DNA from: Myxococcales bacterium
GTDB lineage: Bacteria; Myxococcota_A; Polyangia; Fen-1088
Length of the DNA stretch: 37,370 bases
Assembly: GCA_003158735.1 (NCBI GenBank)
Contig: PMLB01000326.1
Coordinates: 1-37,370 of the forward strand
Reading direction: 5' to 3'
A model generated the notes under the pieces. That model had not been told where the DNA came from. It saw only the letters and a program-made list of their open reading frames with translations, and did not search any database. A program made the translations under genes and the position numbers. This document shows, piece after piece, positions 2,295 to 29,214 of the stretch (the stretch's first letter is position 1; each line of letters begins with the position of its first letter).

Positions 2295-4280
2295 CTATAG
2301 CCGAGCGGCCTGGGCCAGCGCGGCCGCGTCCACACCCTCGCGGCTGCGCAGGTCAAGGTACAAGCTAGCCACGGCCAGCGCCGGCACCGGCAGGCCCACG
2401 ATCATCAACAGGTCGCCCAAGAAGAGGCGCACAAACACCATGCTGCGACGGCCGCTTTCGGGCATCACCAGGTCGGCCAAGATGAAGACCGCTGCGCTCA
2501 GCACAGCGACGGCCAGTGCGACCACAACCACGCGCACGGCTTCCGTCCTGACCAGGGCGATGCTGCGCACAAGCGCCGCCTTGCCCGCCACTCGCTCGAA
2601 CAGCACGACCGCCGGCACGAACAAGAGCAAGACCGCCGCCACCAAGCCGGGCAGGAAGAACAAGGCACTCCCCAGCGCCACCAGCGCGGCCGCGGGCAGC
2701 AGAGCGGTGATGAAGCGCAGACGCCGACGCCACAACAAGGCCCACACGTCGATGAATGACGGCAACGGCGCGCCCGCGCGTCGATCGAGCAACGCCACGG
2801 TCAGGATCGCGTAGGCCAGCGGAACCGCCAGCCCGAAGACCAGAAAGCCCGTCGCCAGAACGGCCGCTAGCCAGCGCGCGACCACAGCCACCGGACTGGG
2901 CACGTCCACCGCGACTCCTGCGCCGACCGCACTTGCGGCCGACACGGTCTCTAGCGCCGCCAGCTCGGCCAATGCTGCCTTGTCGATCTTCCCTTGCGCA
3001 CGGCTGGCCTCCGCCCGACGGACCAGTTCCTGCCTGGCTCGCGAGAAATCGACCGTCGCGGCCGAGCCATCGACCAGCGGACTCGGCGCAGCCGAGCCCA
3101 TGACTGCGGCCACCATACACGACTTCGCCGCAGTCACAGGAAGCAACAGGATGGCCACCAAGAGCAGCAGCGGCCTCCAATTCCGCCAGTAGATCGTGCC
3201 CGCTTCGGCCAGCAAGCGCAGGCCGTCCAGTGCGTCAGCCGAGACCCGCGCCCACCGCGACAACTGGCGCAAGGCCATTCCGCCCCGACTCGGCAAGCCA
3301 GCAGGGCCTGGCTGCGGCGGGCGCGAGTTGGCCACGACGGGCGCAAGAGCGGCCGGCAAATCCACCGGCACCCGGTCCACCGCAGTGACGCCTTCGTCGA
3401 GCGCGGCCACGGGAGCACGGACGGCTGGGGGCGGCTCAGGGGCCGGCGGCCGAGCGCTGACCCTGGCCTCGGTCGGTGGCAAGGGTGCGGAAAATGGCGT
3501 GACCGGCGCATCCAGTTTCACACGGACCGCGCCTGCTGGATCGTCGCGACTCTCCACCACGCTCGGCTGCGGAGCGGGCGGCGGGACTGACACGTCCTTG
3601 GGCGCTGGGGCGAGAGGCGGAGCAGCCACTTGGCTGCGCATGATGAGAGTGCGGCCCTTCTTTCCATCCTCGGAAAAAAAACCTGGGTACGCCGGCTCGT
3701 GCTTGCCTGCCGGCGGGACAGGCGGGATGGCGGCTGCGGCCGGCGCGGTAGCAGGAAGCGCCGGTGGCGGGGCGGAAAAGACTGGCTTGGGCGGACTCGG
3801 TGCAGGGGGCGACACCGGCTTTGCGGGCGGCGCGGCTGCCACCGCCTTGGCCGGCGGTGCAGCCGACATGGGCTTGGCCGGCGGCGCGACTGCCACCGCC
3901 TTGGCCGGAGGTGCGGCTGCTATCGCCTTGGCCGGCGGTGCAGCCGACATGGGCTTGGCCGGCGGCGCGACTGCCACCGCCTTGGCCGGAGGTGCGGCTG
4001 CCACCGCCTTGGCCGACGGTGCAGCCGACATGGGCTTGGCCGGCGGTGCCGCTGCCGACGACGTCTCTTGCTGGGGCTCCGATTTCATCGCGGCCGCAGG
4101 TCTGGGAAACCCCGCGGGCATGGCCAAGCTTGGCGGCGCTGCCAGACCCACCATGGTCTTACCCAACGTCGGACTGTCGAGAGGCTTTCCCGTTATGGGA
4201 CAAGTGCGCGTCTCGGGCCGATGCTGTCTTTGGCAGTGGGGACAGGGCTTCACGGCGAATCTCGGCGAGTGAAGGGCCAT
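2295..4280 (-). CDS. Zinc-ribbon / Ala-Pro-Lys repeat / multi-pass membrane protein
   Basis: The 661-residue product is predicted from the ATG at 4280; an upstream ATG at 4331 is possible. The N-terminus has a zinc-ribbon-like knuckle, C13-P-H-C16 with C27-P-I-T-G-K-P-L, a form common in myxobacterial regulatory and envelope proteins. Residues about 75-150 are an array of nine-residue units of the type A-P-P-A-K-x-x-x-A, followed by a long Pro/Ala-rich low-complexity stretch to about residue 330. From about residue 365 there are several membrane segments. One contains the sequence FERVAGKAALVRSIALVR, and the end has a short Y-L-D-L-R-S-R-E-G segment; both resemble the membrane domain seen in glycerophosphodiester-phosphodiesterase/YciC-type proteins. 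That likeness is my inference. The function is unknown; an inner-membrane scaffold with a cytoplasmic metal knuckle fits the layout. The gene is divergent from moxR. Confidence 0.75.
   Translation of the reverse strand: MALHSPRFAVKPCPHCQRQHRPETRTCPITGKPLDSPTLGKTMVGLAAPPSLAMPAGFPRPAAAMKSEPQQETSSAAAPPAKPMSAAPSAKAVAAAPPAKAVAVAPPAKPMSAAPPAKAIAAAPPAKAVAVAPPAKPMSAAPPAKAVAAAPPAKPVSPPAPSPPKPVFSAPPPALPATAPAAAAIPPVPPAGKHEPAYPGFFSEDGKKGRTLIMRSQVAAPPLAPAPKDVSVPPPAPQPSVVESRDDPAGAVRVKLDAPVTPFSAPLPPTEARVSARPPAPEPPPAVRAPVAALDEGVTAVDRVPVDLPAALAPVVANSRPPQPGPAGLPSRGGMALRQLSRWARVSADALDGLRLLAEAGTIYWRNWRPLLLLVAILLLPVTAAKSCMVAAVMGSAAPSPLVDGSAATVDFSRARQELVRRAEASRAQGKIDKAALAELAALETVSAASAVGAGVAVDVPSPVAVVARWLAAVLATGFLVFGLAVPLAYAILTVALLDRRAGAPLPSFIDVWALLWRRRLRFITALLPAAALVALGSALFFLPGLVAAVLLLFVPAVVLFERVAGKAALVRSIALVRTEAVRVVVVALAVAVLSAAVFILADLVMPESGRRSMVFVRLFLGDLLMIVGLPVPALAVASLYLDLRSREGVDAAALAQAARL
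3833..4060 (-). repeat. In-frame 81-bp tandem repeat (nested 27-bp units)
   Basis: The marker GCAGCCGACATGGGC occurs at 3859, 3940 and 4021, an exact period of 81 bp. Each 81-bp unit is three 27-bp (nine-residue) subunits encoding A-P-P-A-K-x-x-x-A variants. The near-identity of the units at DNA level points to recent slippage or unequal exchange, so copy number may differ between strains. Confidence 0.85.
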
Positions 4281-4385
4281 TATACCCGGGCTGCGCAAGC
4301 CGCCGGTCAAATCCTGGCCATGCCTCGCCATCGGTGACTGCCTCTGCCTTTGCCGCTTGCTCGGACGCGTGGCATTCTGTGGCCG

Positions 4386-5447
4386 ATGTCGGACTCACAG
4401 GAAGCTGCGGTTCTCCCGTCTGGTGCTGGTGATGCAAGCGCCCGGCCGGCGCCTGAGGTCGTCGAGCGCGACGTCACCGCAGCACGCGAGCTGTGCGACG
4501 CCCGACGCGTCCTGTGTGCCGAGATCGGCAAGCGCATCATCGGACAGCACGATGTCATCGACCACCTCTTGATTGCCCTCTTTTCCCGCGGCCACTGTCT
4601 GTTCGTCGGGGTGCCCGGCCTGGCCAAGACCCTGCTCATCCAGACCCTGGCCGATGTGCTCGACCTGTCCTTTGGCCGCATTCAGTTCACGCCTGACCTG
4701 ATGCCGTCGGACATTACCGGCTCGGACGTTCTGGAAGAGGACCGCACCACGGGCCGGCGGGTGTTCCGCTTCGTGCGCGGCCCGATCTTCGCCAACGTCA
4801 TTCTGGCCGACGAGATCAACCGCACCCCACCCAAGACACAAGCCGCGCTTCTGCAATCCATGCAGGAGTATCGCGTGTCGGCCGGCGGCACGACCTACGA
4901 CCTGCCCCTGCCCTTTCTGGTCTTCGCCACGCAGAACCCTATCGAGCAAGAGGGCACCTATCCCTTGCCCGAGGCGCAACTCGACCGCTTCATGTTCGAG
5001 GTGGACGTGGGCTACCCCAGCGCCGAGGAAGAGGTCCGCATCGCCAGCCAGAGCGCGGGCAGTTACCACCCGGTGCTACGCAAGGTGCTCTCGCCCCAGC
5101 GCATTATCGATATGCAAAATCTGGTACTGCGCGTGCCTGTGGCGGACCATGTCCTGCGACACGCGGTGACCCTGTGTCGCGCTACCAGGCCGACGCCGGC
5201 CTCGCCCGACCCCGTGGGCAAGTACGTCGCGTGGGGCGCTGGTCCGCGCGCCTCGCAGCACCTGGTGCTGGCGGCCAAGGCGCGGGCCGTGCTCGACGGC
5301 CGCTATGCGGTTTCCATCGAAGACGTGCGCCGTATGGCACCTCCGGTGCTCATCCACCGCCTGGTCCGCAACTTCCACGCCGAGGCCGACGGCGTGTCGT
5401 CGCGCGCCCTGGTCGAGCGTCTGTTGCAAACCGTCCAACCTGACTGA
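4386..5447 (+). CDS. MoxR-family AAA+ ATPase
   Basis: The 353-residue product starts at the ATG at 4386; an upstream in-frame ATG at 4350 would add 12 residues of low plausibility. The AAA+ core has Walker A G75-V-P-G-L-A-K-T82, Walker B V-I-L-A-D-E-I-N (138-145) and a sensor-1 stretch F-A-T-Q-N-P. It also has the MoxR hallmark P-E-A-Q-L-D-R-F. MoxR ATPases act as chaperone-like partners of VWA-containing proteins. The next two genes, spaced by 9 and 3 bp, encode exactly such partners (a DUF58 protein and a BatA-like protein), so this is one operon. The substrate is not known; roles in envelope stress or surface complex assembly are described for the family. Confidence 0.93.
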   Translation: MSDSQEAAVLPSGAGDASARPAPEVVERDVTAARELCDARRVLCAEIGKRIIGQHDVIDHLLIALFSRGHCLFVGVPGLAKTLLIQTLADVLDLSFGRIQFTPDLMPSDITGSDVLEEDRTTGRRVFRFVRGPIFANVILADEINRTPPKTQAALLQSMQEYRVSAGGTTYDLPLPFLVFATQNPIEQEGTYPLPEAQLDRFMFEVDVGYPSAEEEVRIASQSAGSYHPVLRKVLSPQRIIDMQNLVLRVPVADHVLRHAVTLCRATRPTPASPDPVGKYVAWGAGPRASQHLVLAAKARAVLDGRYAVSIEDVRRMAPPVLIHRLVRNFHAEADGVSSRALVERLLQTVQPD

Positions 5448-5456
5448 GAGCCGGCC

Positions 5457-6416
5457 GTGAGCGAGGACGGCAGAGCAGCAGGCGACCCAGCGCGGCCCGG
5501 GTTGCTTGACCCGACGGATTTGGCGCGGCTGGCGTCCTTGGATCTGCGTGCCCGCACCATCGTCGAGGGCGCGTTTTCCGGCATGCACCGCAATCTGCAC
5601 CCGGGCACGTCGGTGGAATTCACCGAGCACCGCGAATACGCGCCGGGCGACGAGATTCGCCGCATCGACTGGAAAGCCGTGGGCCGCGCCGATCGCTACT
5701 ACGTCAAGCGCTTCGAGGACGAGACCGAGATGCACACCTTTCTCGTGCTCGATGCCTCGGCCTCCATGGGCTATCGCCGGCGGGGCGTGTCCAAGCTCGA
5801 CTACGCGGGCTATTTGGCGAGCGCGCTGGCCTATCTGGTCGGCCAGCAGGGCGACGCCGCGGGGCTGCTGCTCTTCGACGAGAAGGCGCGCAGCTTCCTG
5901 CCGCCCTCGACCCGGCCCGGACAGATCCGTGAGGTGTTCCGCCTGTTGGAGGCGGCCCAGCCTGCGGGCCGCACCGATGCAGCGCTCGCTCTCGGACACC
6001 TGGGCGAGCTCATCGACAAACGCAGCCTCATCATTGTCATGTCCGACCTGCTCGACAGCGAGCCGGATGATCCCAGCGACGAAGTGCGCGGCCCCCTGCC
6101 CGGACGTTTGCGCCAGTTGCGCGCGCGCGGACACGACGTGGCGCTCTTCCATCTGCTCGATCCCGACGAGGTGGAGCTGCCCTTTGACGACCTGATCTTC
6201 TTTGAAGGCATGGAACCGGGTGACACGCGCACTCTGCTCGCGCAGGCGCCGGACCTGGCCCAAGCGTTCAAGCGCGAGTCGCAGGCGTTTCGCGATCGCT
6301 GGCGAACGGCCTGTCTGGAAGCCAGTGTGGAGTATCGCTTCACGCGCACCGACGCTGCGCCGACCGATGTTCTGCGGGCTTTTCTGGCTGACCGCCAGCG
6401 CGCGGTGAGGCTGTAG
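5457..6416 (+). CDS. DUF58 domain protein (VWA-like)
   Basis: The 319-residue product starts with GTG at 5457, nine bases after moxR. The DUF58 signature is clear: residues about 45-85 contain the stretch E-Y-x-P-G-D-E-I-R-R-I-D-W-K-A followed by Y-Y-V-K-R-F-E-D-E. A VWA-like core follows, with a metal-site motif L-D-A-S-A-S-M. No signal peptide or membrane segment is seen, so the protein is cytoplasmic or peripherally membrane bound. DUF58 proteins regularly sit next to moxR and are thought to work with it. The order moxR-DUF58-BatA-like is the classic arrangement. Confidence 0.92.
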   Translation: MSEDGRAAGDPARPGLLDPTDLARLASLDLRARTIVEGAFSGMHRNLHPGTSVEFTEHREYAPGDEIRRIDWKAVGRADRYYVKRFEDETEMHTFLVLDASASMGYRRRGVSKLDYAGYLASALAYLVGQQGDAAGLLLFDEKARSFLPPSTRPGQIREVFRLLEAAQPAGRTDAALALGHLGELIDKRSLIIVMSDLLDSEPDDPSDEVRGPLPGRLRQLRARGHDVALFHLLDPDEVELPFDDLIFFEGMEPGDTRTLLAQAPDLAQAFKRESQAFRDRWRTACLEASVEYRFTRTDAAPTDVLRAFLADRQRAVRL

Positions 6417-6419
6417 CGC

Positions 6420-8537
6420 ATGCATTTTCTCGCGCCCTCGCTGCTCCTGGGCCTGCTGGCGGCCGCTCTGCCTTGGCTGGTGCACCTCATCGGCAAGCGG
6501 CGCGCCCAGCCGCTGCGCTTCGCGGCCATGCAACTGCTCCTGCGCTCCGAGCGGCGCATCTCGGCGCGCCGTCGCTTGCGCGAGATCCTGTTGCTGGTGG
6601 CGCGCACCGGCGTGGCTGCGGCCTTGCCTCTCATCTTCGCCCGCCCGTTTGCCGAGCGCACAACCGACCTGCCGGTGGCCAGCCTGGACCCACAGAGCGC
6701 GGTCATCGTGCTCGACGATTCCGCCAGCATGAGCCGCAGCGCTGGCTTGTCGACCATGTTCGAGCGCGCCCGCGACCGCGCGCGCGCCTTGCTACGCCAG
6801 TTTCCCTCGGACGTGGATTTGGCCTTGCTCCAGGCCTCGGCCGGCTCCAGCCCCAAGATCAGCGAACTTTCCCCTGAACGAGCGCGCGTGCTGGAAGCCC
6901 TGGAGAGCACCGTGTGTTCCGCGCGGCCGGCCGACTTTGCCAGCGCCCTGCGAAGTGCATCCCTCATCCTGGCGGGATCAACGCATGCCAAACGTCGTAT
7001 CTATCTCTTCACTGATCTGCAGGCCGCGGGCTGGGAGGCCGGCACCGGCTTGCCGGCCGAGGGCGCGCCCGAGGTCATCATCAACGACGTCTCGGGGGCG
7101 GCCCGGTGGGAAAATCGCGCGGTACTGGAAGTCAGCGTGGTGCCTGCACCCGAGGTGGGAACCGGCGGAATCGCGGTCGACGCCGAGTTGGCGGATTTCT
7201 CCGCAAGCGGGCGGCGCGCACTGGGAATGGCCTTGAAAGTGGACGGTATCTCGGTGGCCAAGGGTTTTGTCGATCTCGCGCCGGGTGGGCGTAGCCACAA
7301 GCGCTTCCTGCACCGACTGACCGGCGAGACCGGCGGCGCGCACGACGTTGAGGTGGAGATTGATGGCGACGCCTTCCGCCTGGACGATCACCGCTTGGCC
7401 CATGTGGAGTTGGCACGCAGCATGAGCGTTCTCATCGTCAACGGCGACCCGCGCAGTGCGCGCAACGAGGACGAGCCATTCTTCTTCGCGGCTGCGCTTC
7501 GCAATGGCCTGCCTGGCGCGGCGGTGACCATCAAGTTGCCCGACGACGTGTCGCCTGAAAGCCTGGACAACACGACTCTGGTCGCACTTCTGAACCTGGC
7601 ACAGCCCTCGCAAGCCATGGCTTCCGCCCTGGCGCGATTCGTGTCAGCGGGCGGTGGGCTCTTTATCTCAGTCGGCGACCGCGTGGACGCGACGGCGTGG
7701 AACGAGCGCATGGCCAAGCTGCTGCCGCAACCGCTGGGACTGCCGCGCACGGCCTCGGCCTTGCCTGGCCAGCACGCGGGCGAAATCGTCGATGATCGAC
7801 CAGCCGAACGCCTGGCGCCCATCGACCGCAGCCATCCCCTGCTGGCCAATTTCCCCGAGCGCGGCGAAGGTCTGGTATCAGCGCGTTTTTTCAAGTACAT
7901 GCTGCTCGACCCAGCGGTCGAGAGCCCGGAGCGCAGCGTGATTCTGCGCTACGAGAGCGGCGCGCCGGCTCTAGTGGAAAAGCAGGTGGGCAAGGGCCGC
8001 GTGATGTTGCTGTCCACCACGGTGGACCGTGAGTGGACCGATCTGCCCATCCGCACCGGGTTTCTGCCGCTCGTGCGCGAGGCCGCGCGCCGCCTGGTGG
8101 GGGTTACCGGCGATGAAGAGTCCGCTTCGCTGCGGGCCGGCGAGGCGCGGACCCTGGTATTTGCGGGCGACGAGCAACGCCTGGAGGTGTCTCAGCCCGA
8201 CGGCTCGGTGTGGGTCGCGCGGCGCGAACAAGCCAGCCTAGCCCACAGCGTGCTTTACAGCGAAACCGATCGCCTGGGCACCTACCACGTACGCGCCGTC
8301 GGTTCTGACGGCAGAATCACGGCACGGCCCGAGCAGGACTTCGTGGTCAACCTGGACACGCGCGAGTCCAACCCCGCGCGCCTCGACCCCAGCCAAAGGC
8401 CCGATCGCATCGCGGTGGCGTCACCCGGAGTCAAGCCGCCCAAGCACCGGGTCGAGTTGTGGCACAGTCTGGCCGCGGTCATGATCGTCCTGCTGCTGTG
8501 TGAGTCGGTGCTGACGCTGCGAAGGCGAAGAATCTAG
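6420..8537 (+). CDS. BatA-like VWA membrane protein
   Basis: The 705-residue product begins three bases after the DUF58 stop. The first 80 residues are the double-membrane-segment module typical of the BatA family: a first helix at 4-23, a basic loop with L-I-G-K-R-R, then a second helix near 58-76. A VWA domain follows with the full metal motif L-D-D-S-A-S-M (about 97-103). The middle (about 330-560) looks like a glutamine-amidotransferase-like fold, including V-G-K-G-R-V-M-L-L-S-T-T. The C-terminus has one membrane segment and ends in R-R-R-R-I. Most of the protein is expected in the periplasm. No further Bat or DUF4159 gene follows, because the next gene is convergent. Its TAG overlaps the stop codon of that gene in the palindrome CTAG (8534-8537). 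Confidence 0.9.
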   Translation: MHFLAPSLLLGLLAAALPWLVHLIGKRRAQPLRFAAMQLLLRSERRISARRRLREILLLVARTGVAAALPLIFARPFAERTTDLPVASLDPQSAVIVLDDSASMSRSAGLSTMFERARDRARALLRQFPSDVDLALLQASAGSSPKISELSPERARVLEALESTVCSARPADFASALRSASLILAGSTHAKRRIYLFTDLQAAGWEAGTGLPAEGAPEVIINDVSGAARWENRAVLEVSVVPAPEVGTGGIAVDAELADFSASGRRALGMALKVDGISVAKGFVDLAPGGRSHKRFLHRLTGETGGAHDVEVEIDGDAFRLDDHRLAHVELARSMSVLIVNGDPRSARNEDEPFFFAAALRNGLPGAAVTIKLPDDVSPESLDNTTLVALLNLAQPSQAMASALARFVSAGGGLFISVGDRVDATAWNERMAKLLPQPLGLPRTASALPGQHAGEIVDDRPAERLAPIDRSHPLLANFPERGEGLVSARFFKYMLLDPAVESPERSVILRYESGAPALVEKQVGKGRVMLLSTTVDREWTDLPIRTGFLPLVREAARRLVGVTGDEESASLRAGEARTLVFAGDEQRLEVSQPDGSVWVARREQASLAHSVLYSETDRLGTYHVRAVGSDGRITARPEQDFVVNLDTRESNPARLDPSQRPDRIAVASPGVKPPKHRVELWHSLAAVMIVLLLCESVLTLRRRRI

Positions 8538-9937
8538 GGAGAGTAGCTGGGCAGTTCGAGGACGTAGCTATCGACGGACGTGCCGTTGCCCCAATCACTG
8601 GCGAACACCGCCCGCGTGCCGCTTGGGCTGGGAACCGTGTGCGCCTCAGCCCAGTAGCCGAGCACGGAGTTGTTCTTGCCCCAGCTGCGATGCCTTCCCA
8701 CGCGACAGACCACGCCCGTGTTGGTGTCGGCGATGAGGTTCTCCAGCCCGAGCAGGGTCTTCCCCTGGAGTCCCGCACTGTCGTCTGGCACGGTCGACAC
8801 GAAGATCCAGCCCGGCCGCTTGTACGCCATCGCCGAGATGTGGCCGTCGGGCGGATATGGCCAACCGGTCTTGGGTCCGATGACCGCGCCGCCGGTGCCA
8901 TCGGTCATATCCCAGGTCACCAGGATCCCTACGTTGCTCAGTGGGTCGTCGTTGCCGTCGTCGTAAACCGCGCCGTTCCAGGTGTCGTGCCCACTTGCCA
9001 GCCGTCCCAAAGAGGCATGATTGTCGGGCACCTGCAACCCCAGGGAGCGGACCAGATTGAGGTTGGCGTCCAGAACCTGTCCGCTGCCGGCCTCAAGGTA
9101 GGCCAGCGTGCCGCTGGGCGCGACCTGCGACGGCGGTGTTCCGCTGATTGGCTTTGGTCCGAGCACGGAATCAGTGGAGCTGTCGTAGATGAACATCTGC
9201 TTTCCGCAATAGAGGCCAAGACGATGGGAATCCCAAGAAGTGAACATCGGGTCGTCGCCGTTGCTGACCGAGTCTGAGCCGCATAGTCCGCTGAAGCTGT
9301 GCAGCTTGTCCTGCGTCCCGGCGTTGACGTGATAGCGGATGAATTCCTGATCGTCGACGTAATAGAGAATGTCTGGATCGGAAGTGTCCCAGTAGACTTG
9401 CTCGATGTCGGCGGGATTGATGTCGAGGGACCGAAGCAGCTTGTAGGTCTTGCCGTCGTAGAGCTGATGCCCTGCACCGCCGGCGACGCTGTAGAGAATC
9501 AGCAGAGATTCATCTGCGTTCCAGGCGGAGATGGTCGTGTACATGGGAACGATCGCGGCGTCGGCACCCGAGCCCGCGACCGCAGTGATGCGCCGGATCT
9601 TGGTCCCGAACTCGGCATCGATGACCGTCGCCCCCACCGCAGGTTTGGCCAGCGCGGTCATGGGGTGCGGATCCTTGTCCGTGATCATCCCGGCGCAAAG
9701 ATCGGGCAGACTACTGCTGCCACCCTGGCCGCTCACGACGCTGCTGCCTCCGCCGCTCGCAACGCTGCCAGCTCGGCTACCCGCTGCGCTGCCACCTTGG
9801 CCGCCCGCTGCGCTGCCACCCTGACCACCCGCGACGCTGCCACCGACACCATTCTGCCCGCCACTCGCCGCCGTTCCGGCAGATCCGCTGCAGGCGGCGA
9901 GTAGGGTGATGACCAGACCAAGAGCCAGCCGTGCCAT
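8534..9937 (-). CDS. Lipoprotein with Gly-rich stalk and beta-propeller-like domain
   Basis: The 467-residue product starts at the ATG at 9937. A signal peptide ends in L-A-A-C16. Residues about 18-72 are a Gly/Ala/Ser-rich stalk of G-G-Q-G-G-S-A-A-type units. The rest (about 80-467) is a series of short beta-rich blades with motifs such as W-N-A-D-E-S-L-L and S-P-S-G-T-R-A-V-F-A-S-D-W. These resemble WD40-like/TolB-type propellers, in which an aromatic-Asp/Ser-Gly pattern recurs. I see no catalytic motif. It is 39 bp downstream of another exported protein on the same strand, probably in one transcript. Surface binding of a polymer or protein is plausible but unproven. Confidence 0.82.
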   Translation of the reverse strand: MARLALGLVITLLAACSGSAGTAASGGQNGVGGSVAGGQGGSAAGGQGGSAAGSRAGSVASGGGSSVVSGQGGSSSLPDLCAGMITDKDPHPMTALAKPAVGATVIDAEFGTKIRRITAVAGSGADAAIVPMYTTISAWNADESLLILYSVAGGAGHQLYDGKTYKLLRSLDINPADIEQVYWDTSDPDILYYVDDQEFIRYHVNAGTQDKLHSFSGLCGSDSVSNGDDPMFTSWDSHRLGLYCGKQMFIYDSSTDSVLGPKPISGTPPSQVAPSGTLAYLEAGSGQVLDANLNLVRSLGLQVPDNHASLGRLASGHDTWNGAVYDDGNDDPLSNVGILVTWDMTDGTGGAVIGPKTGWPYPPDGHISAMAYKRPGWIFVSTVPDDSAGLQGKTLLGLENLIADTNTGVVCRVGRHRSWGKNNSVLGYWAEAHTVPSPSGTRAVFASDWGNGTSVDSYVLELPSYSP

Positions 9938-9976
9938 GGCTGGTACGATATCACTTTGCCGTGAATCGCTGCTGAA

Positions 9977-10915
9977 CTAGCGTCTGCGCCGGCGGGCCAG
10001 CGTGACGACCACACCGAACAGACCCGCCAGAAGCCAGGGACCGAGGGCTTTGGCCGAAAGCCAGCCGCCCACTGCGCAGCCGCTGCTGTCGCTCGGCTTG
10101 ACGTCGCTGCCGCTTGTGCCACCAGCGGCGCCCGTGGCTGCCATGCCGGATCCGCCCATCGCAAAATTTCCGCCTGCAGGAGGGGCTGAGGTGACGACGC
10201 TCTGTCCGCCGGTCCCGCCCGCGGCGGGAGCCGAGGCCACTGCACTCTGCCCGCCGGTCCCGCCCGCAGCGGGAGCCGAGGCCACTGCACTCTGCCCGCC
10301 TGTCCCGCCCGCAGCGGGAGCCGAGGCCACTGCACTCTGCCCGCCGGTCCCGCCCGCAGCAAGAGCCCCGCCCTGTCCGCCCGTCGCGCTGGCGTCAAGC
10401 GCCGCTGGCGTGCTGGCGTCGGGTCCAGGAGCGGGAGGAGAATAGGGAAGGCAGCCGCCCGCGTTTGATCCGCCGTCGGGGATAGGAGGCAACGGCCAGA
10501 TGGTGGGGCTGAGAACGTTCAGAATTTCTGAAGGGACGGGAGCCCCGTCGCCCTTGAGCCGACACCATAGCTCGGTATAGGCCGAGGCGCCCCATGTCTT
10601 GCAGACCTTGCTGTAGCAGTAGGGCGAAAGCAGCGGGCTACACCGGCCGAAATTATTATAGTCCGCCGCGCAGGCCAGGCACTCCGACGTCGCAGTCTGC
10701 TTGTTGGCAAGGGTGCAAGTCTCGACGTAGCCATCCGGGGGAGGTACGTCCGCCCGAGCCGCGCCGGCCAGAGTCAGAGAGCCGGCCGCGGCCAGCGCGA
10801 GACCGAAGTACCAAATCTTCGTCGCACGCCCTGTGCCCGCGAGCAAGCGCACGAGAGAGCGCCTCAGTTGCCGGTCGGGATTCAGAACTGACACCGATGG
10901 CTTCGCTGTTTTCAT
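9977..10915 (-). CDS. Secreted protein with Gly-rich repeats and MYXO-CTERM-like tail
   Basis: The 312-residue product is taken from the ATG at 10915, with GAGG seven bases upstream; a TTG four codons earlier is the alternative. A basic N-region and hydrophobic stretch (about 33-54) form a long signal peptide ending near A-R-A-D. A Cys-rich segment follows (about 60-135, eight or more Cys). Next comes a run of 15-residue repeats, A-A-G-G-T-G-G-Q-S-A-V-A-S-A-P. The end reads S-G-C-A-V-G-G, a membrane segment (about 288-304) and R-R-R-R-R. A Cys just before a membrane segment and terminal Arg cluster is the layout of the MYXO-CTERM surface-sorting tag, so the protein is probably processed and anchored at the cell surface. 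The function of the Cys-rich head is unknown. Confidence 0.82.
   Translation of the reverse strand: MKTAKPSVSVLNPDRQLRRSLVRLLAGTGRATKIWYFGLALAAAGSLTLAGAARADVPPPDGYVETCTLANKQTATSECLACAADYNNFGRCSPLLSPYCYSKVCKTWGASAYTELWCRLKGDGAPVPSEILNVLSPTIWPLPPIPDGGSNAGGCLPYSPPAPGPDASTPAALDASATGGQGGALAAGGTGGQSAVASAPAAGGTGGQSAVASAPAAGGTGGQSAVASAPAAGGTGGQSVVTSAPPAGGNFAMGGSGMAATGAAGGTSGSDVKPSDSSGCAVGGWLSAKALGPWLLAGLFGVVVTLARRRRR
10186..10365 (-). repeat. 45-bp in-frame tandem repeat, four units
   Basis: Units start at 10186, 10231, 10276 and 10321, read on the plus strand. The middle units are almost identical; the first and last have diverged. Each codes for 15 residues of the Gly-rich linker of the protein at 9977-10915. 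This is a coding minisatellite, not a CRISPR array. Confidence 0.88.
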
Positions 10916-11182
10916 TGGCCGCCTCAAAGATCAGGCTTTAAGCATCCCTCCGGCCTTCTCGCTCTGTCAACCAAAACACTCGTTGTTCCGTGCGTGAGCT
11001 GTGTCCTCGATCACAGGAAACTCTGCTGCCGCTTCGTCAGCACGCCTCCTCGGCAAGCTTGAGTGATGGCCCGGCAATTTGTAAGATCCCCTAACCAATG
11101 GCCCCTGTAGCGAAATCTGTCGGCCCGTGCCCCTGTGGCGGCGGGGGCCAGCGGCTTTTGCAGCCGGCCGGAATATTCGCGC

Positions 11183-22920: not shown

Positions 22921-22938
22921 CTACAACCGCGGTGGTAG
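22921..22938. promoter_or_regulatory. 18-bp palindrome between divergent genes (possible operator)
   Basis: The site reads CTAC-A-ACCGCGGT-G-GTAG, perfect except for one base pair on either side of the central eight. It lies 41 bp before the start of the Kazal lipoprotein gene and 88 bp from the start of the divergent phosphatidyltransferase gene. This is where an operator would be expected, but there is no further evidence. Confidence 0.3.
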
Positions 22939-22979
22939 ACTCGGCACGCAGACTGCGGTGTTGCGCATATGGAGACCCG

Positions 22980-24104
22980 ATGTTCAGAATGTCAACGGCT
23001 GTGGCAGCCATTCTTGCAGTTGGCCTATTGGGCCTGGCGTGTAGCAGGTCCGGTCTGAAGAGGAGCGCAGATGGTGGAACGGGAAGCGGAGGCCAGGCAG
23101 GCACCAAAATCAGTAGCGAAACTGCCGGAGGATTGGGGGGTAGTGCTGGCATCGTTGGTGCCAGCGGTGGCGCGCTAGGCGGCAGTGGTGGCGAAGGTGA
23201 TGCCGGGGTGCCAGACGCCCCCGGTTCTCAGCCGGATGTTTCCATGGGTGGCTCGGGCGGAGGTGCAGGAGGCACTCCTGGTGTCGGTGGCGCCGGTGGT
23301 GGGACGGCCGGCGGGACCACTGGTGCCGGAGGCGGGATGGCCGGCACCGGCGGCACTGGCAACAGCTGCGGGGGCGTGAGCTGCGGCGCGTACGGGGATT
23401 TTTGCGACATCGCGGCAGGGCTCTGCAGCGCTGGCGCTGCCGACGTGTACGGAAAGTGCGTGCTCGTAGGAGCGGTGCTTTGCGCCCCGGGTCCGCCAGT
23501 GTGCGGCTGCGATGGGCAGACCTATAGTAACGACTGCGTTCGCCAAGAGTTTAGGGTGTACAAGAAATCCGACGGCGCATGCACAACAGCAGACGCAGGA
23601 GCGGGCGGCACGACGAGCACCGGAGGGACCACGGGAGCGGGCGGCGCTTCCAGTTCGGGCGGCGCCACCAGTTCCGGCGGGTCTTCCGCTGCAGGAGGTT
23701 CCGGCGGCAAGACCGGCGCGGACGGAGGAACGACAGGCTGCGCAACCGACTGCTCCGCTGCCTCCTGCGGAACCGGTTTTCGGCCCGTCTGCGATACGAC
23801 CGTGCAGCAGTGCCGGTGCAGTCTGGACTGCACCGCCAATCCCGGGACCTGTGGCACGCGCGAGAGCTGCCAGAGTGTCTGTTCCCCCGACGGGACGTGC
23901 GTGTGCCGGGGTTCATGCGGGACCGAGGGACAGATCGGCTTCTTTAAGGGCTGCTGTCCTGGACTGGTTGAAATCTTCTACTACCAGGACACCACGTCCT
24001 GCACCAATCCGCCGGGTGCGGGCTTGGTCGTGTGTACGACCTGCGGCGACAAGATCTGTGGTCTGGGCGAGAATCACTGCAACTGCCCGCAAGACTGCCC
24101 GTAG
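22980..24104 (+). CDS. Kazal-domain Cys-rich lipoprotein with Gly-rich linkers
   Basis: The 374-residue product is taken from the ATG at 22980, with GGAGA six bases upstream. A signal peptide ends in L-G-L-A-C, giving a lipid anchor. A Gly-rich linker (about 25-135) leads to a Cys-rich region (about 138-200). The end of that region has the Kazal protease-inhibitor pattern, P-V-C-G-C-D-G-Q-T-Y-S-N-D-C followed by a last Cys after 13 residues. A second Gly-rich linker follows (about 203-255), then a further Cys-rich region (about 258-374) with an even Cys pattern that ends in C-N-C-P-Q-D-C-P. Kazal domains inhibit serine proteases, so this could protect the cell from its own or foreign proteases. 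Inhibition is inferred from the motif only. Confidence 0.85.
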   Translation: MFRMSTAVAAILAVGLLGLACSRSGLKRSADGGTGSGGQAGTKISSETAGGLGGSAGIVGASGGALGGSGGEGDAGVPDAPGSQPDVSMGGSGGGAGGTPGVGGAGGGTAGGTTGAGGGMAGTGGTGNSCGGVSCGAYGDFCDIAAGLCSAGAADVYGKCVLVGAVLCAPGPPVCGCDGQTYSNDCVRQEFRVYKKSDGACTTADAGAGGTTSTGGTTGAGGASSSGGATSSGGSSAAGGSGGKTGADGGTTGCATDCSAASCGTGFRPVCDTTVQQCRCSLDCTANPGTCGTRESCQSVCSPDGTCVCRGSCGTEGQIGFFKGCCPGLVEIFYYQDTTSCTNPPGAGLVVCTTCGDKICGLGENHCNCPQDCP

Positions 24105-25808: not shown

Positions 25809-25884
<76 letters not shown>

Positions 25885-25939
25885 CCGTGGGCACTTGGTT
25901 GTTCCCGGTGTTTAGCTGGCTCGCGTCGAAGGAGACACC

Positions 25940-28561
25940 ATGGTACGCAAAATCGTAATCTTCGCTCTGGCCGCTGGCGTCGTTGTCGGCGGGTACTATC
26001 TTGGCAAAGGCAACTGGGGGGCACGCACCGTCGCGGCGAGCAAGTACGTCTGCGAAAAGGTTGGGGCAAGCGCCAACGACGATATTGAGCGCAAGTGCGT
26101 GCCGTTCGAGGGCACGCCCAAGGGCTCAGCCAAGGCGCTGGTGACCCTGGTCGAGTTCTCCGACTTCCAGTGCCCCTACTGCAGCCGTGTCGTGCCCACC
26201 ATCGAGCGGTTGGTCAAGGAATACCCGGACAAGGTGCGCGTCTTCTTCAAGCAGAATCCGCTCCCCTTCCACGACAAGGCCCAGCTGGCCGCAGAGTCAG
26301 CGCTGGCGGCCGGGGCCCAGGGGAAGTTCTGGAAGATGCATGATGAGCTCTTCGCCAATCAGTCTGCCCTTGACCGACCCGCCCTAGACAAATACGCGGC
26401 CAAGATCGGCCTGAACATGGGCAAGTTCAAAGCCGCGCTTGACAACCACACCTTCAAGGCCGCGGTGGACAAGGACCTGGCCGACGCCCGAGAGCTGGGC
26501 GTGCAAGGAACCCCCAACTTCTTCATCAACGGCCGCCCGATGCGCGGGGCTGTACCCTACGAGCAGTTCAAGACCGTGGTGGATGAAGAGATCGCCCGCG
26601 CGAAGAAACTCCTGGATAAGGGAACCTCGGTCAGCCAGCTCTATGCCGCTTTCGTCACCGGCAAGGCCAAGGGCATGGGCGTCGCAGCGCCGCCGCCACG
26701 GCCGCCGGTTTCCAACGAAGTCTACAAGGTCGAGGTCGACAAGGCTCCGCGCAAGGGTGGGCAAGCGCCCAAGATCACGCTCATCGAGTTCTCCGACTTC
26801 CAGTGCCCCTTCTGCAGTCGCGCCAAGAACACGCTCGACGAGCTACTCAAGATCTACAAGGACAACCTGCAGATCTCGTTCAAGCAATTCCCGCTGCCCT
26901 TCCACAACAACGCCATGCCCGCCGCCATCGCCTCTGTGGCGGCCGACCAGCAAGGCAAGTTCTGGCCGATGTACGACAAGTTGTTCGCCAATCAGCAGAA
27001 CCTGGATGCGGCCAGCCTGGAAAAGTACGCGCAAGAGATCGGACTCGATGTGGCCAAGTTCAAGACCGCCATCGCCGACCCCAAGACTAAGGCGGTGGCC
27101 GAGGCCGACATGAAGCAGGCCAACCAGTTCGGGGTGCAAGGGACGCCCAGCTTCTTCGTCAACGGCCGCGCCTTCAGCGGCGCCTATCCGCTGGAAAGCT
27201 TCCAGATGGTGCTCGACGAGGAGATCAAGAAGGCGGATGCCAAGCTGCAGGCCGGCACGCCGCGCGCCGAGCTCTACGCGGCCATCATCAAGGACGGACT
27301 GGACAAGAAGGAAATGCCCAAGGAGCAGGCGCGACCCAACGAGCCGTCGCCCACCGAGATCTACAAGGCCGAGGTCAAGGGCGCGCCCATCAAAGGCGCC
27401 AAGGACGCGCTGGTCACCATCGTGCAGTTCTCCGATTTCCAGTGCCCGTACTGCTCGCGGGTCGAGCCGACCATCGACAAGATCATGGAGGAGTACAAGG
27501 GCAAGGTGCGGGTGGCGTGGCGAAACAAGCCCCTACCCTTCCACGACAAGGCCAAGCCCGCGGCCATCGCGGCCCTGGCGGCCGATCAGCAGGGCAAGTT
27601 CTGGCCGATGCACGACATCCTGTTCAAGAACCAGCAGAACCTGGATGCCGCCAGCTTCGAGAAATACGCCAAGGAGATCGGCCTCGACATGACCAAGTTC
27701 AAGGCCGCCTTGCAGGACAAGAAGCTTCAGGATGCCGTCGAAGCGGACGTTGCCATGGGCGACAAGCTCGGCGCGCGTGGCACGCCGGCGTTCTTCGTCA
27801 ACGGAAGCTTCCTGTCGGGCGCGCAGCCTTTCGAGAACTTCAAGTCCCGCATCGACGAACAGTTGAAGAAAGCCGAGGAGCTGGTCAAGAAGGGCACGCC
27901 CAAGGCCAAGGTCTACGACGCACTCATGAAGACGGCCAAGGCCGAGGTGAGTGGCGGCGCAGCCCCAGCGGCTCCGGCTGCTGCGCCTGAGGCGGGTCCG
28001 GTCAAAGATGTCGATCCGGGAAACGCCCCTGCGCGCGGGCCCAAGAACGCACCGATCACGGTGGTGCTTTTCTCCGACTTCCAGTGCCCGTTCTGCGGGC
28101 GGGTCGAGCCCTCGCTGACCGAGCTGGAAAAGGCCTACCCAGGCAAGGTGCGGGTGGTTTGGAAAAACTTCCCGCTCCCCTTCCACAACAATGCCAAGCC
28201 TGCAGCCGAGGCCGCCATGGCCGCTAACGAGCAGGGCAAGTTCTGGGAGATGCACGCCAAACTGTTCGCCAACCAGCAGAACCTGGATGCGGCCAGCCTG
28301 GAGAAATACGCGAAAGAGATCGGCCTCGACATGGCCAAGTTCAAGGCCGCCACCGACAGCCACAAGTTTGCCGCCCAAATCGAGGCGGACACCAAGCAGG
28401 GCAGCTCAGTTGGCGTGCAGGGCACGCCTGCCAGCTTCCTCAATGGCCACTTCATCAACGGCGCCCAGCCTTTCGATGCCTTCAAGAAGATCGCCGATGA
28501 AGAACTGGCCAAGGGCGCGGCCACCAAAGGCAAGAAGAAGGTAGCCGCGGCCATCAAGTAG
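25940..28561 (+). CDS. Four-domain DsbA-like (thioredoxin-fold) envelope protein
   Basis: The 873-residue product starts at the ATG at 25940, after a well-placed AAGGAG. Residues 4-22 form a membrane anchor or uncleaved signal, and an extra Cys pair (C38, C53) follows. Four DsbA-like domains then repeat every 211-214 residues, with active sites C78-P-Y-C, C289-P-F-C, C502-P-Y-C and C716-P-F-C. Each follows F-S-D-F-Q and each has a cis-Pro loop of the type G-x-x-G-T-P-x-x-F-x-N-G. The family (Thioredoxin_4) oxidises or isomerises disulfides in the periplasm. Single-domain members are about 200 residues, so this is a tandem fusion. Domains 2-4 are closer to one another than to domain 1, which suggests stepwise duplication. 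A TlpA-like thioredoxin gene follows 26 bp later, and the two may form a redox unit. Confidence 0.93.
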   Translation: MVRKIVIFALAAGVVVGGYYLGKGNWGARTVAASKYVCEKVGASANDDIERKCVPFEGTPKGSAKALVTLVEFSDFQCPYCSRVVPTIERLVKEYPDKVRVFFKQNPLPFHDKAQLAAESALAAGAQGKFWKMHDELFANQSALDRPALDKYAAKIGLNMGKFKAALDNHTFKAAVDKDLADARELGVQGTPNFFINGRPMRGAVPYEQFKTVVDEEIARAKKLLDKGTSVSQLYAAFVTGKAKGMGVAAPPPRPPVSNEVYKVEVDKAPRKGGQAPKITLIEFSDFQCPFCSRAKNTLDELLKIYKDNLQISFKQFPLPFHNNAMPAAIASVAADQQGKFWPMYDKLFANQQNLDAASLEKYAQEIGLDVAKFKTAIADPKTKAVAEADMKQANQFGVQGTPSFFVNGRAFSGAYPLESFQMVLDEEIKKADAKLQAGTPRAELYAAIIKDGLDKKEMPKEQARPNEPSPTEIYKAEVKGAPIKGAKDALVTIVQFSDFQCPYCSRVEPTIDKIMEEYKGKVRVAWRNKPLPFHDKAKPAAIAALAADQQGKFWPMHDILFKNQQNLDAASFEKYAKEIGLDMTKFKAALQDKKLQDAVEADVAMGDKLGARGTPAFFVNGSFLSGAQPFENFKSRIDEQLKKAEELVKKGTPKAKVYDALMKTAKAEVSGGAAPAAPAAAPEAGPVKDVDPGNAPARGPKNAPITVVLFSDFQCPFCGRVEPSLTELEKAYPGKVRVVWKNFPLPFHNNAKPAAEAAMAANEQGKFWEMHAKLFANQQNLDAASLEKYAKEIGLDMAKFKAATDSHKFAAQIEADTKQGSSVGVQGTPASFLNGHFINGAQPFDAFKKIADEELAKGAATKGKKKVAAAIK

Positions 28562-28587: not shown

Positions 28588-29214
28588 GTGCCGGACAAGG
28601 GGCGGGACAAGGGAGCGCAGCCTAGGGACCGCAAAAGAGCGGTCCCTAGGGCTGTGGGTTGGCGGCGCGCGATCGCTGTGGCCATCGTCGCTCTGGCGAC
28701 CGCCACTTTGGCCGTGCGATTCTTTGCAGGAGCCGCGCGGACGGCGGCCGCAGCACGCAACAGCACCTGTGGCGCCCTCATGCCTGACCCGCTCGCACCC
28801 AAGCTGGAGGGACTGGCGCCTGACTTCGAGCTGGCCGATGCCTCGGGCAAACGATGGTCGTTGCGCGGACTTCGGGACAAGCCGGTGCTGGTCAGCTTCT
28901 GGGCCACCTGGTGCCCGCCCTGTGTCCAAGAAATGCCCTCGCTGGAAGCTCTGGCTCGCCGCCTGGGCGATCGAGCCACCGTCCTGGCGGTCAGCGTGGA
29001 TGAGAATTGGGAGGCCATTAGCAAATTTTTCCCCCATGGAACGCCGCTGACGGTCTTGCTCGATCCCAGCCGAGAGGTTCCGGCTAGCTACGGCACCAGC
29101 CAGTTCCCCGAAAGCTTCCTCATCGATCCCAGCGGGCACGTTCGCTACGCCTTCATCAACCAGCGCAACTGGTCCGTCCCCGAAGCCGCCGCCTGCATCG
29201 AGGACGTCAGATAG
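28588..29214 (+). CDS. TlpA-like membrane-anchored thioredoxin
   Basis: The 208-residue product is given from the GTG at 28588, with GGAG a few bases upstream. GTG at 28654 is an alternative start that would place the hairpin at 28621-28650 in the leader. A membrane anchor lies at about residues 27-47. The thioredoxin fold follows, with the active site W-A-T-W-C-P-P-C (about 108-115), P-D-F-E-L in front of it, and a cis-Pro in S-Q-F-P-E-S. A WCPPC site is typical of the TlpA/ResA/CcmG group, which reduce disulfides outside the cytoplasm. Its opposite expected direction to DsbA-type domains makes pairing with the preceding tetra-DsbA gene notable. Start choice is uncertain. Confidence 0.88.
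   Translation: MPDKGRDKGAQPRDRKRAVPRAVGWRRAIAVAIVALATATLAVRFFAGAARTAAAARNSTCGALMPDPLAPKLEGLAPDFELADASGKRWSLRGLRDKPVLVSFWATWCPPCVQEMPSLEALARRLGDRATVLAVSVDENWEAISKFFPHGTPLTVLLDPSREVPASYGTSQFPESFLIDPSGHVRYAFINQRNWSVPEAAACIEDVR
28621..28650 (+). other. Perfect 12-bp hairpin at the 5' end of the TlpA-like gene
   Basis: CCTAGGGACCGC (28621-28632) and GCGGTCCCTAGG (28639-28650) are exact inverted repeats with the loop AAAAGA. No T-run follows. If translation starts at GTG 28588 the hairpin is inside the coding region. If it starts at GTG 28654 the right arm covers the ribosome-binding region. Confidence 0.85.

Follow-up and report, generated by a model that had tools for sequence, protein, structure and literature searches.

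Four DsbA-like domains in one membrane-anchored protein of a Myxococcota genome, a candidate disulfide isomerase multiplied within the chain

The known bacterial DsbA-like isomerases gain their isomerase activity by oligomerising single catalytic domains. Their telling feature is that oligomerisation provides them with several catalytic domains, and GT-cisP is found in all five of the oligomeric DsbA/DsbC-type isomerases that were compared, CPYC being the motif of CcScsC (PMC6450060). In the case of PmScsC, the combination of trimerisation and a flexible linker makes the isomerase: as a monomer the protein turns into an oxidase, and with a rigid linker its isomerase activity is lost (PMC5524982). 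The 2009 thioredoxin-fold atlas noted DsbA-like sequences from bacteria that contain two or three DSBA domains, and its passages on them go up to three domains and give no function (PMC2757866).

The protein described here, which we call the array protein, is encoded in a window of 37,370 nucleotides, the whole stretch of DNA analysed (contig PMLB01000326.1 of a Myxococcales bacterium). It has in common with ScsC (Proteus, Caulobacter) and with Wolbachia alpha-DsbA2 the DsbA fold, the GT-cisP loop and multiple active sites on flexible tethers, probably so in the array. ScsC and alpha-DsbA2, however, trimerise through an N-terminal helix, whereas the multiplicity of the array is covalent. The fold, the CPxC motif and the GTP loop are also common to its domains and to C. 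diphtheriae DsbA/TsdA (4pwo/7unn), S. pomeroyi 3gyk and B. subtilis BdbD (3eu3), which have one catalytic domain per chain against the four of the array, with their probably flexible linkers and membrane anchor. Among eukaryotic proteins, the redox-active foldase PDI resembles the array by its several thioredoxin-fold domains per chain, but these are classical Trx domains arranged as a-b-b'-a', two of them active, while the array has four of the DsbA type with all sites intact. The folding-sensor region of UGGT also holds four DsbA-like domains in one chain, but with a rearranged topology, a glucosyltransferase fusion and no significant sequence match to the array domains. Since the atlas already records two- and three-domain proteins, the array extends an architecture that was known before: it has four domains, all conserved and with their active sites intact, and a relative has as many as seven. 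Our literature searches found no paper describing what the tandem DsbA proteins of Myxococcota do.

Architecture and conservation of the array protein

The array gene is an ATG-start open reading frame of the forward strand (25940-28561) coding for 873 residues, and a Shine-Dalgarno-like AAGGAG (25929-25934, by direct reading) stands 5 bases ahead of the ATG. The product begins with a hydrophobic helix (residues 2-23, 25943-26008), predicted to span the membrane and likely to be an uncleaved anchor, in agreement with the envelope protein proposed by a first, sequence-only reading of the window; the relatives begin with a comparable hydrophobic N-terminus. An extra pair of cysteines, C38 and C53 (26051-26098), precedes domain 1 (residues 57-222, 26108-26605; CPYC 78-81, GTP 190-192). 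Domain 2 (residues 267-432, 26738-27235; CPFC 289-292, GTP 401-403), domain 3 (residues 480-645, 27377-27874; CPYC 502-505, GTP 614-616) and domain 4 (residues 694-859, 28019-28516; CPFC 716-719, GTP 828-830) follow. They are joined by linker 1 (residues 223-266, 26606-26737), whose spacing is ~28 aa longer in three genus members, linker 2 (residues 433-479, 27236-27376) and the Ala/Pro-rich linker 3 (residues 646-693, 27875-28018), with low AlphaFold2 confidence at 242-253, 460-465 and 673-685, respectively. The protein contains exactly ten cysteines, namely C38, C53 and those of the four CxxC motifs (at 78, 289, 502 and 716), which recur with periods of 211, 213 and 214 residues; the GTP of the cis-Pro loop comes ~112 residues after each CPxC. 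As CP[YF]C and GTP are present in each domain, all four active sites and cis-Pro loops are intact and none has decayed, as had been proposed.

Searched alone, each 166-aa domain scores 101-109 bits with Thioredoxin_4 (PF13462, Pfam cut-off 23.2) and 86-101 bits with DSBA (PF01323, cut-off 25.6), which bears out the earlier description of four CxxC thioredoxin-fold domains with a period of 211-214 in a single chain. Membership of NCBIfam NF041057 (Rcas_1661 family thioredoxin-like (seleno)lipoprotein) was rejected: single domains reach 90-114 against a cut-off of 190, and the whole-protein score of 412.8 is a sum over the four domains. Structure prediction also gives four DsbA-fold domains. In the full-length AlphaFold2 model, built with a 29-sequence alignment, pLDDT is mostly ~80-97 in the domains and <50 in the linkers, and the linkers are probably flexible; because of their low confidence and a pTM of 0.37, the relative arrangement of the domains is not fixed by the model. 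At the N-terminus, this one-chain model has a TM-like helix and then a short loop, with no separate soluble oligomerisation helix visible. Domain 3, modelled alone (pLDDT 98.3), is predicted to be a thioredoxin fold with an inserted helical subdomain, the CxxC at a helix start and a cis-Pro loop, and its top PDB matches are DsbA structures. Its fold neighbours are C. diphtheriae DsbA/TsdA, the nearest solved relatives by both sequence and fold, S. pomeroyi 3gyk, Wolbachia alpha-DsbA2, BdbD and ScsC; for the DsbA/TsdA-3gyk-BdbD group the TM score is 0.85-0.89 (domain-normalised), with an rmsd of ~1.7-2.6 and 24-38% identity. The viral structure library gave no match at E<=0.001.

Pairwise, the domains are 44-55% identical over ~200 aa, a similarity well above chance (E=1e-63 for domains 1 and 3). 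The divergence attributed to domain 1 is real but modest, its identity to the others being 44-51% against 50-55% among domains 2-4. The claim that domains 2-4 share near-identical DNA holds for the short QQNLDAAS segment, in which 23-24 of the 24 bases match, and fails for the whole domains, where third-codon identity is just 0.55-0.58, so that the domain duplication is old. Over 24 codons, 56-64 of the 72 bases are identical among the three domains, and the shared local segment is found in other genus members too.

The four CxxC and the four GTP motifs are invariant in 29 aligned four-domain homologues; since these were picked for having four CxxC, the invariance of GTP is the independent part of this result. 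When the array gene is compared with its counterparts in six other genus genomes, dN/dS is 0.06-0.18 in every domain, lowest in domain 3, which is the most constrained, and rises to 0.67 in the N-terminal region and to 0.47 in the linkers; these ratios indicate a strong purifying selection on all four domains. The C38/C53 pair, which the sequence-only reading had also singled out, is present in the 7 genus genomes and in one other genus (g5) and absent from the other 21 aligned homologues; being confined to two genera, it lies outside the core design. In five four-domain relatives (L085, L087, L091, L094 and L142) the CxxC is lost in the first domain alone, and its retention in the lineage of the window is thus not automatic. 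The non-catalytic substrate-binding domain of PDI resembles this CxxC-less first domain.

Redox neighbourhood and candidate function

A gene for a CNNM/CBS/CorC-type protein and a tRNA-Phe (25809-25884) lie upstream of the array gene. A TlpA/ResA-like thioredoxin gene (28588-29214, forward strand), coding for 208 aa with a hydrophobic N-terminus and a WCPPC motif (CPPC at 28912-28923), begins 26 bp downstream, and TIGR04552 and ABC1 kinase genes are further neighbours. Neither scsA nor scsB is among the neighbours, the lack of a visible ScsA setting this locus apart from scs; the fourth gene of the scs locus, scsD, codes for a TlpA-like protein, and the array gene has its TlpA-like neighbour. 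In 79 relative loci, a TlpA-like gene stands next to the multi-DsbA genes downstream in 19, upstream in 0 and on the other strand in 1, the overlapping frames of L046 making its placement there not scorable by script. It occurs in the family of the window, in several other lineages and in Nannocystis clusters, and was not seen beside the Myxococcaceae three-domain genes in this comparison. The linkage is conserved in part of the class, and the TlpA/ResA-like protein is a probable partner of the array protein. In two genus members (L010 ~4159-4558, L042 ~8659-9058), the TlpA-like neighbour lies in pieces in different frames, which appears to reflect a frameshift, gene decay or a sequencing error. 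In Nannocystis (L102-L105, ~4170-10100), genes with two, three and two DsbA-like domains are followed by a TlpA-like gene, making seven DsbA domains over three adjacent genes. As to the other redox partners, DsbD_TM proteins and VKOR are encoded in 7/7 genus genomes and a recognisable DsbB in 0/7. The best VKOR match in the genome of the window carries a fused DsbA-type domain (CPHC/CPYC) with GT-cisP, and no N-terminal periplasmic domain of the ScsB/nDsbD type was read, by eye, in its DsbD-family proteins.

The best explanation, to which we give nearly an even chance, is that the array protein is a disulfide isomerase of the ScsC/DsbC kind, which is multimerised covalently and which TlpA/CcdA keeps reduced. 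Anchored in the inner membrane and facing the periplasm, it would be a thiol-disulfide exchange enzyme whose DsbA-fold domains, all four catalytically competent, sit on flexible linkers, the active sites that are joined elsewhere by dimerisation or trimerisation being fused here in one chain. One domain would attack the wrong disulfide while the others would hold or resolve it, and the TlpA-like neighbour and the CcdA/DsbD-type reductase of the genome would supply the electrons that keep the array protein reduced. The periplasmic location, the isomerase activity and the role of TlpA as electron donor are what we infer. In favour of this reading, a single chain combines multiple GT-cisP domains with linkers that are probably flexible, its gene has a reductase-type neighbour and ScsC offers a precedent; the conserved active sites in domains under purifying selection, the DsbD_TM proteins of the genus and the presence of ScsC and of the Wolbachia isomerase alpha-DsbA2 among the fold neighbours of domain 3 speak for it too. 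Against it stand the nearest solved relatives, C. diphtheriae DsbA/TsdA, which to our knowledge are not known as isomerases, as well as the Myxococcaceae three-domain forms without visible TlpA-like neighbour and the lack of a ScsB/nDsbD-type domain. Furthermore, GT-cisP is not diagnostic of an isomerase, as the VKOR-fused DsbA domain, presumably an oxidase, has it as well.

The sequence also fits an oxidase, the GTP loop being common to this VKOR-fused domain, and the main rival, a serious possibility, is a multi-site dithiol oxidase whose four domains would introduce disulfides into secreted proteins and be re-oxidised by VKOR, and whose array would simply bring more active sites together at the membrane. 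The occurrence of VKOR and the lack of DsbB throughout the genus, the DsbA/TsdA and BdbD type of the nearest solved relatives and a CPxC dipeptide compatible with oxidases argue for it; but the best VKOR match, to which a DsbA-type domain is already fused, may do without another partner, and the conserved neighbour gene belongs to the TlpA/ResA type, in which the characterised members are reductants. The raised local oxidase concentration suggested earlier is compatible with the data but unspecific, since it suits the isomerase as well as the oxidase.

It is improbable that the array protein chiefly holds substrates as a chaperone or senses folding in the manner of UGGT, with redox chemistry secondary. 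UGGT, which also has four DsbA-like domains (PMC7687155), is the top fold match of the full-length model, and the first domain without CxxC in some Myxococcota relatives would suit such a role; but the match extends over 846 alignment columns with an rmsd of 26.8 and a TM of 0.12-0.18, the 50 best fold matches of a single domain include no UGGT chain, the UGGT domains differ in topology, TRXL4 being discontinuous (PMC7687155), and every CxxC is kept in the lineage of the window. The UGGT families Thioredoxin_12-15 reach E ~0.02 at best on 77 domains, none significantly (Thioredoxin_15 in 5/77 and Thioredoxin_14 in 2/77, the remaining two not being among the 25 families listed). Homology to UGGT was rejected, the fold match being a mere effect of chaining four domains with no single-domain or sequence support, and the likeness is a parallel, not a relationship.

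Very unlikely, finally, is the intramolecular electron relay that had been suggested, in which electrons would pass from CxxC to CxxC, for instance towards a distal substrate from the membrane side. It could draw on the multiple redox sites of the chain and, in two genera, on an extra Cys pair near the membrane. But this pair is missing in most homologues, the motifs are equivalent at every site, the domains are joined by low-confidence linkers, the model predicts no ordered packing and the number of domains ranges from 2 to 7; positive evidence for a relay is nil.

Distribution and history of the arrays

All seven genus genomes encode the four domains in one frame, with 87-96% identity to the protein of the window, and in most other members of its family the ORF has four domains too and is 57-69% identical; one member of the family (L023) has three domains, without counterpart of domain 1. 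Four-domain forms are present in independent MAGs of other families, and three-domain forms in isolates of Corallococcus, Myxococcus, Pyxidicoccus and Hyalangium; Myxococcaceae and Archangiaceae carry three-domain versions, and two- and seven-domain versions occur across Myxococcota. The 133 complete multi-domain ORFs comprise 69 with three domains, 48 with four, 15 with two and one with seven, proportions which are no census, as similarity guided the choice of the loci and some genomes entered twice. In more than 110 of 379 phylum genomes, among the matches listed, a match is long enough to cover two or more domains, and many families of this spread have single-domain matches only. The array is a widespread and old protein design in Myxococcota, and the view that multi-domain forms are exceptional has to be given up, three- and four-domain forms being common in this phylum and two- and three-domain ones being recorded in the DsbA-like passages of the 2009 atlas (PMC2757866). 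The fear that single-domain orthologues dominate and that an assembly or mis-binning artefact of repeated reads made the four-domain ORF, understandable for a fragmented assembly (467 contigs, 82% complete), deserves practically no credence and is ruled out by these independent genomes: the genus and other families have the four domains in frame, isolate genomes hold three-domain homologues, and reads of domains just 44-55% identical would not collapse.

In a tree of 127 domains, made by a quick method with support by SH-aLRT only, the domains of the window's family cluster by position, so that the array is older than this family; between genera, the identity is 0.62-0.70 for the same position versus 0.54 for different ones. 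A recent tandem duplication is ruled out by this clustering together with the third-codon identity of ~0.55. In L046, L048, L050, L054 and L061, the domains cluster more by lineage. In the seven-domain L061, d1 groups with d5, d3 with d6 and d4 with d7, and this protein looks as if a block of a four-domain array had been duplicated.

The L061 frame (5884-10920, 1679 aa), with CxxC and GTP in all seven domains, is also found in G217 and is partly represented by L135. The genome of the window holds a two-domain paralogue (L002/L003, G000:C180:16037-17338), which starts, by eye, with a lipobox-like VGNC and shares, in its second domain, 72% identity with domain 3. A second homologue of four-domain length (G013:C50:15045-17495) occurs in a genome that has the main one (L017) too, the array gene being duplicated there. 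In L004 (769-1977, reverse strand), a putative lipoprotein joins a single-domain relative to an N-terminal region rich in cysteines. Outside the phylum, plasmid pACIX901 of Granulicella tundricola (Acidobacteriota; L154, 2429-3937) encodes a degenerate tandem DsbA-like protein with CPFS in the first domain, CPVC in the second and a degenerate third repeat.

Could the arrays represent a distinct strategy of Myxococcota, in which DsbA-type domains, 2 to 7 per chain, are multiplied covalently into membrane-anchored foldases for periplasmic disulfide proofreading? We put forward tentatively, as a possibility, such a bacterial counterpart of eukaryotic multi-domain PDI, with positions 1-4 conserved, separate and probably specialised. 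If the arrays are isomerases, a whole phylum would have reached through duplication within the gene, like eukaryotic PDI, what the known bacterial DsbA-like isomerases achieve by oligomerisation, and the natural series of two, three, four and seven domains would directly test the number of active sites that a foldase needs. The arrays would also inform on how secreted proteins rich in disulfides are dealt with in large, social and predatory Myxococcota. The window itself encodes, at 22932-24104, a putative Gly/Ser/Thr-rich lipoprotein with many cysteines, no Pfam match and, by eye, a Kazal-like stretch (CGCDGQTYSNDCVR), which might be the kind of disulfide-rich secreted protein that such foldases serve.
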